64,000 bases of DNA from Hellea balneolensis DSM 19091 (GTDB taxonomy: Bacteria; Pseudomonadota; Alphaproteobacteria; Caulobacterales; Maricaulaceae): contig NZ_AUAC01000007.1 in assembly GCF_000428525.1 (NCBI RefSeq), forward strand, positions 1 to 64,000. Reading direction: 5' to 3'. The position numbers and the translations under genes are program-made. A model generated the notes under the pieces. It was not told the origin of the DNA, ran no database searches, and saw only the letters and a program-made list of their open reading frames with translations. Numbering within the stretch: position 1 is the first letter of the stretch; each line of letters begins with the position of its first letter. Below, one piece after another: positions 23,946 to 29,170 of this stretch.

Positions 23946-24974
23946 ATGGGGCAAGCAACTAAACGCATGAATATGATCGAAGCGATCCGAGATGCGCTGG
24001 ATGTCAAAATGACGGAAGATTCTGACGTTCTCGTTTTTGGCGAAGATGTGGGCTATTTTGGCGGTGTATTTCGCGCCACGGCGGGCTTGCAGGAAAAGCA
24101 TGGCCTTCACCGCTGTTTTGATACGCCAATTTCTGAAGGCGGCATTGTTGGGATTGCTATAGGCATGGCGTCCAATGGATTGCGGCCTGTCGCAGAAATT
24201 CAATTCGCCGATTATATCTATCCGGGCTATGACCAAATTGCCTCAGAGGCTGCGCGTTTGCGTTACAGGTCTAACGGCGAATTTTCGGCGCCGCTGACAA
24301 TCCGTACCCCTGTCGGCGGGGGAATTTATGGCGGGACAACCCACAGCCAAAGCCCAGAAGCATTGTTTACGCATATTGCGGGACTAAAGACTGTCATTCC
24401 GTCCAACCCTTACGATGCTAAAGGCATGCTTATCACCGCGATTGAGGATAATGACCCGGTCTTATTTTTGGAACCCAAGCGGCTTTATAATGGCCCGTTT
24501 TATGGGGACCCGCATATTCCGTCAGTTAGTTGGGCCAAACATGAGCTTGGAGATGTGCCTGAAGGCCATTACACTGTGCCATTCGGTTCAGTCCGCCGAA
24601 TAACAGAAGGGCCTGATCTCACCATTTTGGCCTATGGAACGATGGTCTGGGTGGCCGAGGCGGCGGCAAAAGAGGCAGGTGTTCAGGCGGATATTCTCGA
24701 TCTGCGCGCGCTTCTCCCTCTTGATATTGAAGCCATTGCAGAGTCAGTCAAAAAGACAGGGCGTTGTCTTATTCTGCATGAAGCCACGCGCACATCCGGC
24801 TTTGGTGCAGAATTATCAGCCCAAGTCGCAGAGGCGTGTTTTTTCTCACTCGAGGCTCCTATCGTGCGGGTGACGGGCTGGGATACGCCTTATCCGCATG
24901 CGCAGGAATGGGCCTATTTCCCGGGGCCAAAGCGCGTTATGAACGGCATTCGTAAAGTAATGGGTCAGGCGTAA
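23946..24974 (+). CDS. bkdAB: Branched-chain 2-oxoacid dehydrogenase E1 beta subunit
   Basis: This pairs with E1 alpha to form the alpha2beta2 decarboxylase. The 342 residues show the transketolase-like beta-subunit landmarks: VFGEDVGYFGGVFRAT, DTPISEGGIVGIAIGMAS, EIQFADYIYPGYDQI and a C-terminal domain with ILHEATRTSGFGAELSAQ. Start and stop are tightly packed: the TAA-TC-ATG join follows E1 alpha, and its own TAATG junction overlaps the E2 start by one base, so the three are translated from one mRNA. Confidence 0.95.
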   Translation: MGQATKRMNMIEAIRDALDVKMTEDSDVLVFGEDVGYFGGVFRATAGLQEKHGLHRCFDTPISEGGIVGIAIGMASNGLRPVAEIQFADYIYPGYDQIASEAARLRYRSNGEFSAPLTIRTPVGGGIYGGTTHSQSPEALFTHIAGLKTVIPSNPYDAKGMLITAIEDNDPVLFLEPKRLYNGPFYGDPHIPSVSWAKHELGDVPEGHYTVPFGSVRRITEGPDLTILAYGTMVWVAEAAAKEAGVQADILDLRALLPLDIEAIAESVKKTGRCLILHEATRTSGFGAELSAQVAEACFFSLEAPIVRVTGWDTPYPHAQEWAYFPGPKRVMNGIRKVMGQA

Positions 24975-26506
24975 TGGGCGATTACAGATTTAAACTCCCC
25001 GATATCGGTGAGGGCGTCGTTGAGGCCGAAATTACAGCGTGGCATGTCGCCGTTGGCGATACTGTCGAAGAAGATGCGCCAATAGCAGACGCTATGACGG
25101 ATAAAGCCACGATTGAACTCACGGCACCTGTGTCGGGCGTCATAAAAATGGTGGCTTGCGAAGAAGGCGATATGCTCGCCGTCGGCGCCGATCTGGTTGT
25201 TTTCGAAACCGATGGCGGAGAGGATGATGATAAGGGCGATAAGACCGAAGCCCCAAATACTGTTGAGGCAAGCTCAAACGGCTCTTCAACATATGCCTTT
25301 AAACTGCCCGATATTGGTGAGGGTGTAGTTGAGGCTGAAATTACGGCGTGGCACGTCGCTGTTGGGGATGATGTTGAGGAGGATGACCCCATAGCCGATG
25401 CGATGACGGATAAAGCCACAATTGAGCTAACCTCTCCTGTTTCAGGCACCGTTAGAACCGTAGCCTGTGAGGAAGGGGAAATCTTGGCCGTAGGCGCGGA
25501 CCTAGTCGTGTTTGACGTAGAAGGCGGCGGCAATGTCGATGCTGAAACCGGCTCGGACTCCAGTGATATTACGCCGCTAGCGACAGCCATTATCCCAGCA
25601 AAACCTCAAAACACATCCACCCCGCCGGCGAGTTTTAAAAAAGCAGCGGCGCCAAAATCCAATGGCGGCAAAGTCCTCGCGGCTCCTGCCGTGCGTAAAG
25701 CAGCCCAGGAAAAAGGCCTAGATTTAGCCCTTGCCAAAGCGAGCGGTAAAGATGGTGAAGTCACCCATGCTGATTTGGCCTTGCTAGAAAAAAGCTTTGC
25801 GCAGGAAGAGGGTGAAACCCGTATCAAAGTCATTGGGCTGCGCCGTGTTATTGCGCAGCGCATGCAAGAGGCTAAACGTCATATTCCGCATTTCACCTAT
25901 GTTGAAGAGATTGATGTAACGGAACTTGAAGCCTTGCGTAAGCGTGCCAATGAAAAGAAGAGCGAGGAGAAACCAAAGCTCACCGTTCTGCCCTTCATCA
26001 TTCGCGCCTTGGCAAAAACGCTCGAAGACTGGCCTCAATTTAATGCCCGCTATATGGATGAGCAGGGCTATGTTTCTCAATTTTCTGACTTGAATTTAGG
26101 AATAGCCGCTCAGACAGAGGCCGGGCTTATTGTTCCCGTTTTGAAAAAAGCGCAAACACTGTCGATATGGCAAATGGCCGAAGAGATCGCGCGTCTCGCC
26201 GAAGGCGCAAGAATGAATAAACTCACGACGGATGATCTGACCGGCGCCACGACAACATTGACCTCTTTGGGGCCTCTAGGTGGTATTGTAACAACGCCCG
26301 TTATCAATCGTCCCGAAGTCGCGATTTTTGGCCCCAATAAAATCCGTAAAAAACTGGTCTTGGAGGGCGGGGAGGTTAGGCAGCGCTTGGTCATGAATTT
26401 TTCAGTCTCTTGCGATCACCGGGTGATAGACGGATATGATGCCGCAAAAATGATGCAAGATATGAAACAAACGCTTGAAGATCCATTATTTATGTTTTTG
26501 AGCTAA
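24974..26506 (+). CDS. bkdB: Branched-chain 2-oxoacid dehydrogenase E2 with two lipoyl domains
   Basis: This is the dihydrolipoamide acyltransferase core of the complex, 510 residues. Two lipoyl domains (about residues 3-80 and 107-185) carry the lipoylated Lys44 and about Lys147, each within MTDKATIEL. A peripheral-subunit-binding domain follows (LAAPAVRKAAQEKGLDLAL, about 236-270), then the catalytic domain with the HxxxDG motif at His482/Asp486 (CDHRVIDG). BkdB proteins normally have one lipoyl domain; here the two are about five-sixths identical. No E3 (dihydrolipoamide dehydrogenase) gene follows, so E3 is presumably shared from elsewhere. Confidence 0.94.
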   Translation: MGDYRFKLPDIGEGVVEAEITAWHVAVGDTVEEDAPIADAMTDKATIELTAPVSGVIKMVACEEGDMLAVGADLVVFETDGGEDDDKGDKTEAPNTVEASSNGSSTYAFKLPDIGEGVVEAEITAWHVAVGDDVEEDDPIADAMTDKATIELTSPVSGTVRTVACEEGEILAVGADLVVFDVEGGGNVDAETGSDSSDITPLATAIIPAKPQNTSTPPASFKKAAAPKSNGGKVLAAPAVRKAAQEKGLDLALAKASGKDGEVTHADLALLEKSFAQEEGETRIKVIGLRRVIAQRMQEAKRHIPHFTYVEEIDVTELEALRKRANEKKSEEKPKLTVLPFIIRALAKTLEDWPQFNARYMDEQGYVSQFSDLNLGIAAQTEAGLIVPVLKKAQTLSIWQMAEEIARLAEGARMNKLTTDDLTGATTTLTSLGPLGGIVTTPVINRPEVAIFGPNKIRKKLVLEGGEVRQRLVMNFSVSCDHRVIDGYDAAKMMQDMKQTLEDPLFMFLS

Positions 26507-26657
26507 GGGATGCGTGCAGCTTAAATCGCCGCGCGTCTTGGGGCTTGTTGCCGTAATTTAACGTATTTCCCAAGATGTTCCTATATTATACCTTGCACTC
26601 AGCATGGTTTGTAGGCATTTGGATTTCGCAATGGTTTTATTATAGTTTCATCTCAAA

Positions 26658-28970
26658 ATGCTTACTGCGCTCATTCAACAAGCCAAAAATGCCACGAAAT
26701 ACTCACTTGAGGGTTTTCAGTACCTTTTTAAAAGCGAATTCGCGGCCAGAATTGAAGTCTATTGTTTCATTTGGTTTTTTCCGGCTTTGGTGTTCTTGAA
26801 GTTATCACCAATTTATCTTCTGAGTTCACTACTCCTTTTCCTAATGCTACTAGCGACTGAAGCATTGAATACGGCTGTTGAAGTAATTGTTGATAAAGTT
26901 TCTCCTGAGATCTCTGCTATGGGAAAACAAGCTAAAGATTTGGGGTCTTTCGCTGTAATGTGCGCTTTAATAATGAATTTTGCGCATTTGGCTTTTGTTT
27001 TGACTAAAGTAAATTGGACGGCGGTTGATGTGAATTTAGCCATTATTTTTTCTCTTATCGCTCTTCTTATAGGTGTTTATCTGGCGGTATGGCCACATTC
27101 CAGAAAACGGATATTATTTTTGGTCACACCTGTTCTGCTCCTCTATTTTTTGGCTTTAGGCATATATTTGGCTTCAAACGCTTTTACAGGAGCTGGGTTT
27201 GATAATAAGGTTATATACCATTTAAAGACAGGCTTGAGCGGAGCGGGTTTTGCCGAATATACAGGCCTTATCCTATGGATGACCTTATATTCTGTTATCG
27301 GACTTGCTTTAGTTTATTTAGTGCATGATTTAATTGGCAAAAAAAAGAGAGGCATTTCCCAAAAGCTGTCCGGTTATATGACTCGTCAAGTCAAATTTGA
27401 AGCCACGCGAGGTGAAACGGATAGTACGCATAGGGTTCCCGACCAAAAAATAAAACACTGGCTAAGCCTTGGAGCATTACTGCTTGCTGTCATTTTAAAC
27501 CCCCTTACCGCGAATCTCGCCACGCTATTGAATAGGCCTTCGCCTAAGCTCGTAACAATGTCAGATTATGAACTTTACGTTCAGCGTGATGTCGCCAGTC
27601 TTGCAAGCGAAGTTAAAATAAAGAAAAATTTTTTATTTGTTTATTTGGAAGGATTGGAAAGGACCTATTTCGACCCTGAATTATTTCCGGGTCTTACACC
27701 TAATTTAGCCGCTCTTGAGGCTAACCACATCAGCTTTTCTGATATACGCCAAGTTTACAACACGGAGTGGACAATAGCAGGTATGGTTGCGACGCAATGT
27801 GGCGTACCCATGTATACGCCGTCTCAAGGCAATACGATGAATGCCTATGACCAATTTATGCCCAATGCGGTTTGTTTAGGCGACATTTTGGACCGTAATG
27901 ATTATCAACTTGAATTCTTAGGTGGCGGCGATTTGGACTTTGCTGGAAAAGGGAAATTTCTCAAATCCCATGGCTTTGATAAGGCGATTGGACGGGATGA
28001 TCACGAGAAAGGAAATTTTTCTGAAGCGGAGTATAATGGTTGGGGGCTTTACGATGATACCCTACTCGGAGTGGCTTATGATAAATTTGTCTCCCTATCA
28101 CAAAATGACGACCCGTTCGGGCTATTTGTTTTGACGCTGGATACACACCAACCTAAGGGACATGTCTCTCCATCTTGTGAAGGACGAGTCTATCAAGATG
28201 GATCAAATCCTTTGTTAAATTCTGTTTTTTGCACTGATCAGCTCTTTAGTGATTTCGTCAAGAAAATTCAGGCCACGCCTTATGTTGACGAGACTTTAAT
28301 TGTAATTGTATCTGACCATATCGCTATGAACGGGACAACATCAGACCTTCTTGCAAAAGGGCAACGACGAAACTTGTTTATGATTATTGACCCGTCTGCG
28401 ACAAAGCCTCTAAGAGTTGAGCGGCTTGCCTCTCCTCTCGATGTTGCGCCTACAGTCTTATCATATTTAGGTGTAGAAAGTAGCTCGATCGGTTTTGGCC
28501 GAAATTTATTTGCAGATAAGAAAACGCTTATTGAAGAGAAACCAGAGCATTTTAACTTCTTTTTATGGCAGGTTGGAAAGAAGATAAAATCGGAACTATG
28601 GAATTTCCCAGAGCTCTCTCAAGGGTTGGTATTGGACATAAAAACAGAGCGCTTGAATATAGGCCGGCGATGGATTTCTGTTCCAGCGATACTGGTGCTT
28701 AATAAAGATAATGAAATTTCTACATTAGAGTTTTATTCAGTCGATGCGGGGGAACGAAAAGGTTATCTGGTCAATAAACTCCCAAAAGAGATGCCCTATC
28801 TTTGGGTAGATAATTGCGCTGAGATGGAAGCGAAGCAACCAAATAATGCTGTATTAGTTTATACTGAAGGAGAGTGGTGCGCGGGCCTTGGTGAAAATAA
28901 TAATCTGTTAAATGAAATTTCTAAGGTGAAACATCGGGGAAAAGTATTTCCTGAGATTTTTAAACCTTAG
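26658..28970 (+). CDS. Fusion: diacylglycerol kinase (DgkA) + OpgB-like phosphoglycerol transferase
   Basis: One unbroken 770-residue frame joins two enzymes. Residues 1-118 are a complete DgkA: SEFAARIE (Glu27, Glu33), EALNTAVEVIVD (Glu68, Asn71, Glu75, Asp79) and AKDLGS (Lys93, Asp94) align with E. coli DgkA at a constant offset of one residue. Four further membrane helices (about 125-145, 150-172, 199-222, 268-290) lead to a periplasmic sulfatase-fold domain. Its Glu331 (LEGLE), nucleophile Thr372 (TIAGMVATQCGVP), WGLYDDT and Asp553-His554 (SDHIAMN) match OpgB/LtaS enzymes. OpgB moves phosphoglycerol from phosphatidylglycerol to periplasmic glucans and leaves diacylglycerol; DgkA rephosphorylates that lipid. 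The OpgB far C-terminal domain seems absent. The DNA looks more AT-rich than bkd next door, and no clear ribosome site precedes the ATG. Confidence 0.9.
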   Translation: MLTALIQQAKNATKYSLEGFQYLFKSEFAARIEVYCFIWFFPALVFLKLSPIYLLSSLLLFLMLLATEALNTAVEVIVDKVSPEISAMGKQAKDLGSFAVMCALIMNFAHLAFVLTKVNWTAVDVNLAIIFSLIALLIGVYLAVWPHSRKRILFLVTPVLLLYFLALGIYLASNAFTGAGFDNKVIYHLKTGLSGAGFAEYTGLILWMTLYSVIGLALVYLVHDLIGKKKRGISQKLSGYMTRQVKFEATRGETDSTHRVPDQKIKHWLSLGALLLAVILNPLTANLATLLNRPSPKLVTMSDYELYVQRDVASLASEVKIKKNFLFVYLEGLERTYFDPELFPGLTPNLAALEANHISFSDIRQVYNTEWTIAGMVATQCGVPMYTPSQGNTMNAYDQFMPNAVCLGDILDRNDYQLEFLGGGDLDFAGKGKFLKSHGFDKAIGRDDHEKGNFSEAEYNGWGLYDDTLLGVAYDKFVSLSQNDDPFGLFVLTLDTHQPKGHVSPSCEGRVYQDGSNPLLNSVFCTDQLFSDFVKKIQATPYVDETLIVIVSDHIAMNGTTSDLLAKGQRRNLFMIIDPSATKPLRVERLASPLDVAPTVLSYLGVESSSIGFGRNLFADKKTLIEEKPEHFNFFLWQVGKKIKSELWNFPELSQGLVLDIKTERLNIGRRWISVPAILVLNKDNEISTLEFYSVDAGERKGYLVNKLPKEMPYLWVDNCAEMEAKQPNNAVLVYTEGEWCAGLGENNNLLNEISKVKHRGKVFPEIFKP

Positions 28971-29093: not shown

Positions 29094-29170
29094 GGTGAGG
29101 TAGCTCAGCTGGTTAGAGCGCAGGACTCATAATCCTGAGGTCGTGAGTTCAAGTCTCACTCTCACTACCA
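29094..29170 (+). tRNA. tRNA with anticodon CAT, probably elongator tRNA-Met
   Basis: All four arms fold. The acceptor GGTGAGG pairs with TCTCACT with G-T pairs at both ends, and the D arm reads AGCTCAGCTGGTTAGAGC. The anticodon stem CAGGA/TCCTG closes the loop CTCATAA with CAT at 29128-29130. The T arm is GTGAG-TTCAAGT-CTCAC, and CCA is encoded. The body resembles elongator tRNA-Met of alphaproteobacteria; an Ile tRNA with lysidine-modified CAT is the alternative, and the initiator is excluded by the paired first base and the anticodon stem. Confidence 0.92.

Follow-up and report, generated by a model that had tools for sequence, protein, structure and literature searches.

A one-gene DgkA-OpgB-like fusion in Hellea balneolensis, predicted to produce diacylglycerol and to phosphorylate it again

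The window analyzed here is a stretch of 64,000 nucleotides from Hellea balneolensis DSM 19091 (contig NZ_AUAC01000007.1, positions 1 to 64,000 of the forward strand). Between a PDH E2 gene and a tRNA-Met gene lies a single gene that begins with ATG and encodes a diacylglycerol kinase (DgkA) domain, an OpgB-type membrane part and a predicted periplasmic catalytic part in one uninterrupted frame, with no stop and no frame break (Table 1). An earlier note on this DNA had claimed one continuous DgkA-OpgB-like frame, and this is borne out by a 770-residue protein with both domains and by a second genome that is alike. The gap-free alignment with the ortholog spans the junction. A possible internal start at the junction (GTG, residue 125) was rejected, being TTA in the ortholog, L008. 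The 40 bases ahead of the start (26621-26660) are mostly kept in L008, with TTATAGTTTCATCT common to both. No clear Shine-Dalgarno sequence was found in these 40 bases, and the fused gene is possibly transcribed with a short leader.

Table 1. Position, strand and supporting evidence for the fused gene, its parts and its flanking genes
Feature	Coordinates	Strand	Evidence
Whole fused gene, 770 aa	26658..28970	+	Open frame; L008 ortholog (81% identical; 769 aa aligned, no gaps)
DgkA domain, aa 1-118 (PF01219 aa 14-114)	26658..27011	+	Profile match, residue alignment; pN 0.082 vs pS 0.790, window vs L008
OpgB-type membrane part, aa 119-300	27012..27557	+	Hydropathy, K/R counts; aligns with E. coli OpgB membrane part; 39% (51/130) to the remnant in genome G316
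Catalytic part, predicted periplasmic, aa 301-770 (PF00884 aa 323-606)	27558..28970	+	Profiles, PDB relatives; 38% identity (162/423) to E. coli OpgB
Left flank, PDH E2 gene	24974..26506	+	Adjoins tRNA-Met in relatives without the fusion
Right flank, tRNA-Met(CAT)	29094..29170	+	tRNA found; compared with relatives

The N-terminal part belongs to the Pfam family DAGK_prokar (PF01219), with an E-value of 1.2e-22 and 80.1 bits against a cut-off of 22.3. When aligned with DgkA of E. coli MG1655, 15 of the 23 positions inspected are identical, and E28, R32, E34, E69, N72, E76, D80, K94 and D95 are all retained, while R9 and A14 are replaced by Q7 and T13, respectively. The previous statement that all key DgkA residues are present therefore stands for the nine polar or charged active-site positions and was slightly overstated with regard to R9 and A14. 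Seven positions (E28, E69, N72, E76, D80, K94 and D95), which we take to be the active-site list in our selection of key positions, are kept in both species that carry the fusion. The best reading of this domain is a predicted diacylglycerol kinase with putative ATP-dependent activity.

The C-terminal part falls within the Sulfatase superfamily (PF00884; E 1.4e-26, 94 bits against a cut-off of 25). Its top two NCBIfam models are both for phosphoglycerol transferase I, at 371.5 and 347.2 bits, and both scores lie below the respective cut-offs of 574 and 572; the higher is that of the OpgB equivalog model NF003000 (residues 268-761). The LtaS model scores only 27 bits, and an EptA model is absent from the matches listed. 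By sequence, the PDB chains nearest to this part are VP1736 (3lxq) and, as further entries, enzymes of lipoteichoic acid formation (primase/synthase); for the N-terminal part it is E. coli DgkA. Glu331, the proposed nucleophile Thr372, Asp553 and His554, which had been picked out from the sequence alone, align with Glu170, Thr211, Asp394 and His395 of MG1655 OpgB, in agreement with that assignment. In a careful tree of 18 rows, drawn from the 35 of a first, quick tree, the catalytic half sits within a 16-row clade that includes E. coli OpgB (support 100/100), the inner order of which is left open. A specific grouping with E. coli OpgB, seen in the quick tree (SH-aLRT 87), was therefore not retained, and we make no claim on the source of the catalytic half.

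The same architecture is present in an independent assembly, Hellea sp. isolate MAG-164 (L008; JAHDDT010000002.1), where 769 residues align without a gap and 80.6% are identical; the copy from genome G303 (L032) is identical in sequence to L008. Between the window and L008, pN is 0.079 for the catalytic part, much as for the DgkA domain, and pS is 0.79 in both, a value at or past the correctable limit, so that synonymous sites are near saturation. The C-terminal part (pN 0.129) and especially the membrane/linker part (pN 0.195, the least constrained) are looser. This near-saturation, together with the roughly equal constraint on both domains, argues against an assembly join. Among the nine neighboring genes compared, pS is 0.64-0.73 in eight and 0.78 in one, similar values which indicate that the fusion gene diverged together with its surroundings. 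The fusion is a real, rare and conserved protein under selection, built from known parts.

To define how widely the two parts occur, protein searches were made of the family as a whole, as available (137 genomes). Twenty genomes matched parts of the fusion, 16 the DgkA part and six the catalytic part, in a sample in which many genomes are incomplete and by a search that would miss remote transferases. Only H. balneolensis and G303 matched both parts, and both carry the fused gene; 14 genomes matched the DgkA part alone and four the catalytic part alone. Co-dependence of the two parts is thus not general in the family, since none of the 137 genomes matches both apart from the fusion carriers. 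In a sample of the order, PF01219 was found in 23 of 299 genomes, in frames of at most 202 residues in all except H. balneolensis. In the class sample 76 of 385 genomes matched the protein, and no other had one match spanning both parts. PF01219 was matched by 211 of 398 genomes of the phylum sample; among the matches listed, five frames longer than 250 residues and two shorter ones were followed up, and in these seven stretches no match to the membrane part or the catalytic part turned up. Plasmids gave 67 matching records out of 72,556, none covering 80% of the query. A contig scan identified one relative among 13 candidate stretches; it reaches close kin only, because its queries were peptides of the fused protein itself.

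Within the H. balneolensis genome (99.8% complete) the fusion is the sole DAGK_prokar match. Five PF00884 proteins are encoded, the other four of which contain C-x-P-[ST]-R, the sulfatase motif. A search for a separate dgkA or opgB therefore revealed neither a second DgkA nor a second PF00884 candidate for a head-group transferase. Elsewhere in the class, four genomes encode a GT4 glycosyltransferase that carries DgkA at its C-terminus (L082:4072-5484 on the minus strand, L083:3674-5122, L084:3054-4562 and L085:3068-4540). At three other loci (L076:607-2876, L077:922-3204 and L086:4058-6029, the last two on the minus strand) a PF00884 transferase gene, from a clade apart from OpgB, is followed directly by dgkA.

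The surroundings of the gene offer some insight into its history. In three genomes of the same genus (G305, G308 and G262) the PDH E2 match and tRNA-Met are 70-80 bases apart, and it is this spot that the fusion gene fills in H. balneolensis; no tRNA was found within the stretch examined in G316 and G301. In G305, G349 and G173, dgkA occurs as a separate gene, flanked by an ABC transporter gene on one side and a PadR gene on the other. Both fusion carriers have a GNAT acetyltransferase gene at this site, which is empty in G262 and G308. No convincing match to an old dgkA remnant was detected beneath the acetyltransferase gene (best E 0.010). The GNAT gene itself (L145:3554-4042 on contig C6 of H. 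balneolensis, against L146 on C130 of G303) is identical at 524 of 532 bases with a gene pS of 0.038, and the flanking ABC, PadR and SDR genes have pS values of 0.56-0.64 between the two species; it looks like a recent transfer.

GC3 of the three parts of the fusion is 0.356, 0.379 and 0.367, against 0.411-0.504 in seven neighboring genes, and such low values across all three would fit arrival as a unit, without amounting to proof. In a tree of 47 rows, from which duplicates and the four glycosyltransferase-fused frames had been excluded beforehand, the DgkA half groups with members of this family alone, in a clade of 15 rows (support 100/100). In G316 (L089:5570-6481, minus strand) a TAA stop closes dgkA, after which the frame continues for 182 residues that resemble the OpgB membrane part; the locus adjoins a run of glycosyltransferase-like genes. 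No catalytic domain was found in the 12 kb examined, nor elsewhere in that genome by protein search. This locus could represent either a decayed fusion or an ancestor-like, unfused pair whose end has been lost.

Hydropathy was used to model the topology. Three segments are read in DgkA and four in the OpgB-type membrane part (at about residues 127-145, 152-170, 204-222 and 273-291), with K/R-rich loops after segments four and six, the count of seven being one reading of overlapping hydropathy runs. Based on this, a DgkA domain ending outside would join an OpgB part starting outside without an extra helix, with the catalytic domain outside and the K/R-rich loops inside. DgkA is a trimer, and the fused protein may form trimers through this domain.

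In E. coli, passages of PMC8027125 and PMC3818809 describe how phosphoglycerol transfer from phosphatidylglycerol frees diacylglycerol, which DgkA restores to phosphatidic acid, and how dgk mutants build up toxic diacylglycerol, an effect suppressed by opgB (mdoB) mutations. By analogy, the fusion would be a single bifunctional inner-membrane enzyme, with producer and scavenger of diacylglycerol in one polypeptide. Its OpgB-like domain, predicted to be periplasmic, would take phosphoglycerol from phosphatidylglycerol and attach it to a glycan of the periplasm or the cell surface, leaving diacylglycerol in the membrane, and the N-terminal DgkA, predicted at the cytosolic face, would phosphorylate the left-over lipid to phosphatidic acid. 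The two activities, the lipid that serves as donor, the membrane topology and the trimerization through DgkA are inferred from sequence. The idea that fusion hands the lipid over locally is weakened: text in PMC7559476 places the DgkA active site on the cytosolic side, and text in PMC3818809 the OpgB catalytic domain on the periplasmic side. Direct hand-over is unlikely because the predicted active sites face opposite sides of the membrane, and no lipid channel is proposed, because diacylglycerol must flip between leaflets. What covalent joining would bring is then not channeling but a producer and a scavenger that are expressed together, in one place and in a fixed ratio.

As to the acceptor, genes linked to osmoregulated glucans were searched for. 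MdoG/OpgG was sought in the H. balneolensis genome and not found, in a search whose control matched E. coli only (1/14). The E. coli OpgH query gave no match in 13 genomes, H. balneolensis among them, in a search that held no control of its own; the same query does match alphaproteobacterial OpgH on plasmids, for example in Sulfitobacter, Sphingomonas and Bradyrhizobium, and would thus be expected to pick up an ordinary OpgH. The GH94 domain was absent from both genomes searched (0/2), with a control that matched Thermotoga only (1/14) and hence gives no control for a cyclic-glucan synthase. A passage of PMC11389396 gives opgH as the only opg homolog of Caulobacter, so missing OpgG by itself means little and missing OpgH means more. 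With the osmoregulated glucan pathway undetected by these searches (OpgG 0/1, OpgH 0/13, GH94 0/2 genomes), such glucans are a doubtful acceptor, and the earlier suggestion of periplasmic glucans is weakened, although divergent glucan synthases may be encoded in the genome. Overall, what survives of the first interpretation is the one-protein DgkA-OpgB-like enzyme, with its residues kept and as sole copies, and what does not is the local hand-over and the glucan acceptor.

Several other explanations have to be weighed. It is unlikely that the catalytic domain draws on a different donor or yields a different product (phosphoethanolamine or polyglycerol phosphate, for example), or that it acts on lipid A or some other glycan of the cell surface, with DgkA still recycling diacylglycerol. 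The negative OpgG, OpgH and GH94 searches and the sub-threshold OpgB score are consistent with this, as are the LtaS-type chains among the PDB matches; EptA- and LtaS-type transferases share the PF00884 fold. The best matches are nevertheless OpgB models, far above LtaS and with no EptA model listed, and the fusion shares its fully supported clade with E. coli OpgB. We consider it quite unlikely that the halves, joined in the gene, act apart, either cleaved in the cell or merely co-expressed as in an operon. Such a scheme would suit the weak constraint on the membrane/linker part, the unfused dgkA genes adjoining PF00884 transferase genes at three alphaproteobacterial loci, and the release of E. 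coli OpgB itself as a soluble periplasmic form, reported in a passage of PMC3818809; it sits poorly with a length kept gap-free across the junction and with the presence of TTA in place of the GTG codon in the ortholog.

A DgkA half without catalytic function, serving as an anchor or trimerization module, seems improbable. The changes at R9 and A14 and the trimeric nature of DgkA would be in keeping with it, but the seven active-site residues are kept in both species, pN is on a par with the low value of the catalytic domain, and the genome has no other DgkA. An assembly or frame artefact, which nothing in the data favors, was rejected as extremely improbable given two genomes alike at 81% identity, saturated synonymous sites and conserved flanks. 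A bifunctional inner-membrane enzyme that makes diacylglycerol and phosphorylates it again is thus the best explanation and, in our judgment, a probable one. A fuller version is tentative, and we regard it as possible rather than likely: a trans-membrane salvage enzyme, probably trimeric via DgkA, that would convert phosphatidylglycerol to diacylglycerol outside and this to phosphatidic acid inside, serve an envelope glycan other than osmoregulated glucans, and have replaced the stand-alone dgkA.

Should both domains work, one clonable protein would hold the whole loop from phosphatidylglycerol to phosphatidic acid, known as two genes from E. coli genetics, and with it one could ask directly whether coupling the formation of diacylglycerol to its removal protects the membrane. 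It would also hint that prosthecate marine bacteria seemingly lacking known glucan synthases have an envelope glycan that bears phosphoglycerol. Two structurally solved enzyme families are joined end to end, in a predicted topology that needs no extra helix, and the predicted lipid damage and its predicted repair would always be made together, in one membrane protein. The biochemical idea follows from what E. coli genetics has already established; what was not expected is the likely absence of the known acceptor pathway.

The fusion resembles several known systems. It has the full domain of E. coli DgkA and the same nine charged or polar active-site positions, but only 30 of 92 residues are identical, R9 and A14 are changed, and its C-terminus continues into the OpgB part. 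With E. coli OpgB/MdoB (phosphoglycerol transferase I) it shares a membrane part, a PF00884 catalytic domain and the same four catalytic positions, and it differs in the DgkA domain in front, a shorter C-terminal part, a sub-cut-off OpgB score and OpgG and OpgH partners that were not found. Our literature searches, of partial coverage, retrieved papers on operons and resistance genes and reviews, and no description of a DgkA-OpgB fusion; dgkA adjoining head-group transferase genes is already known, and the fused architecture is apparently undescribed. In Vibrio vulnificus, according to passages of PMC10433830, dgkA, eptA and mdoB form one operon, in which a diacylglycerol scavenger is likewise co-expressed with diacylglycerol-producing transferases, but as three separate proteins with a role in polymyxin resistance. 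The mcr-3-dgkA pair, as outlined in part of PMC7559476, also links a PF00884-type head-group transferase to dgkA, but for phosphoethanolamine transfer and as separate proteins. The GT4 glycosyltransferase-DgkA proteins likewise join DAGK_prokar to another envelope enzyme, but with a different partner and with DgkA at the opposite end of the protein.
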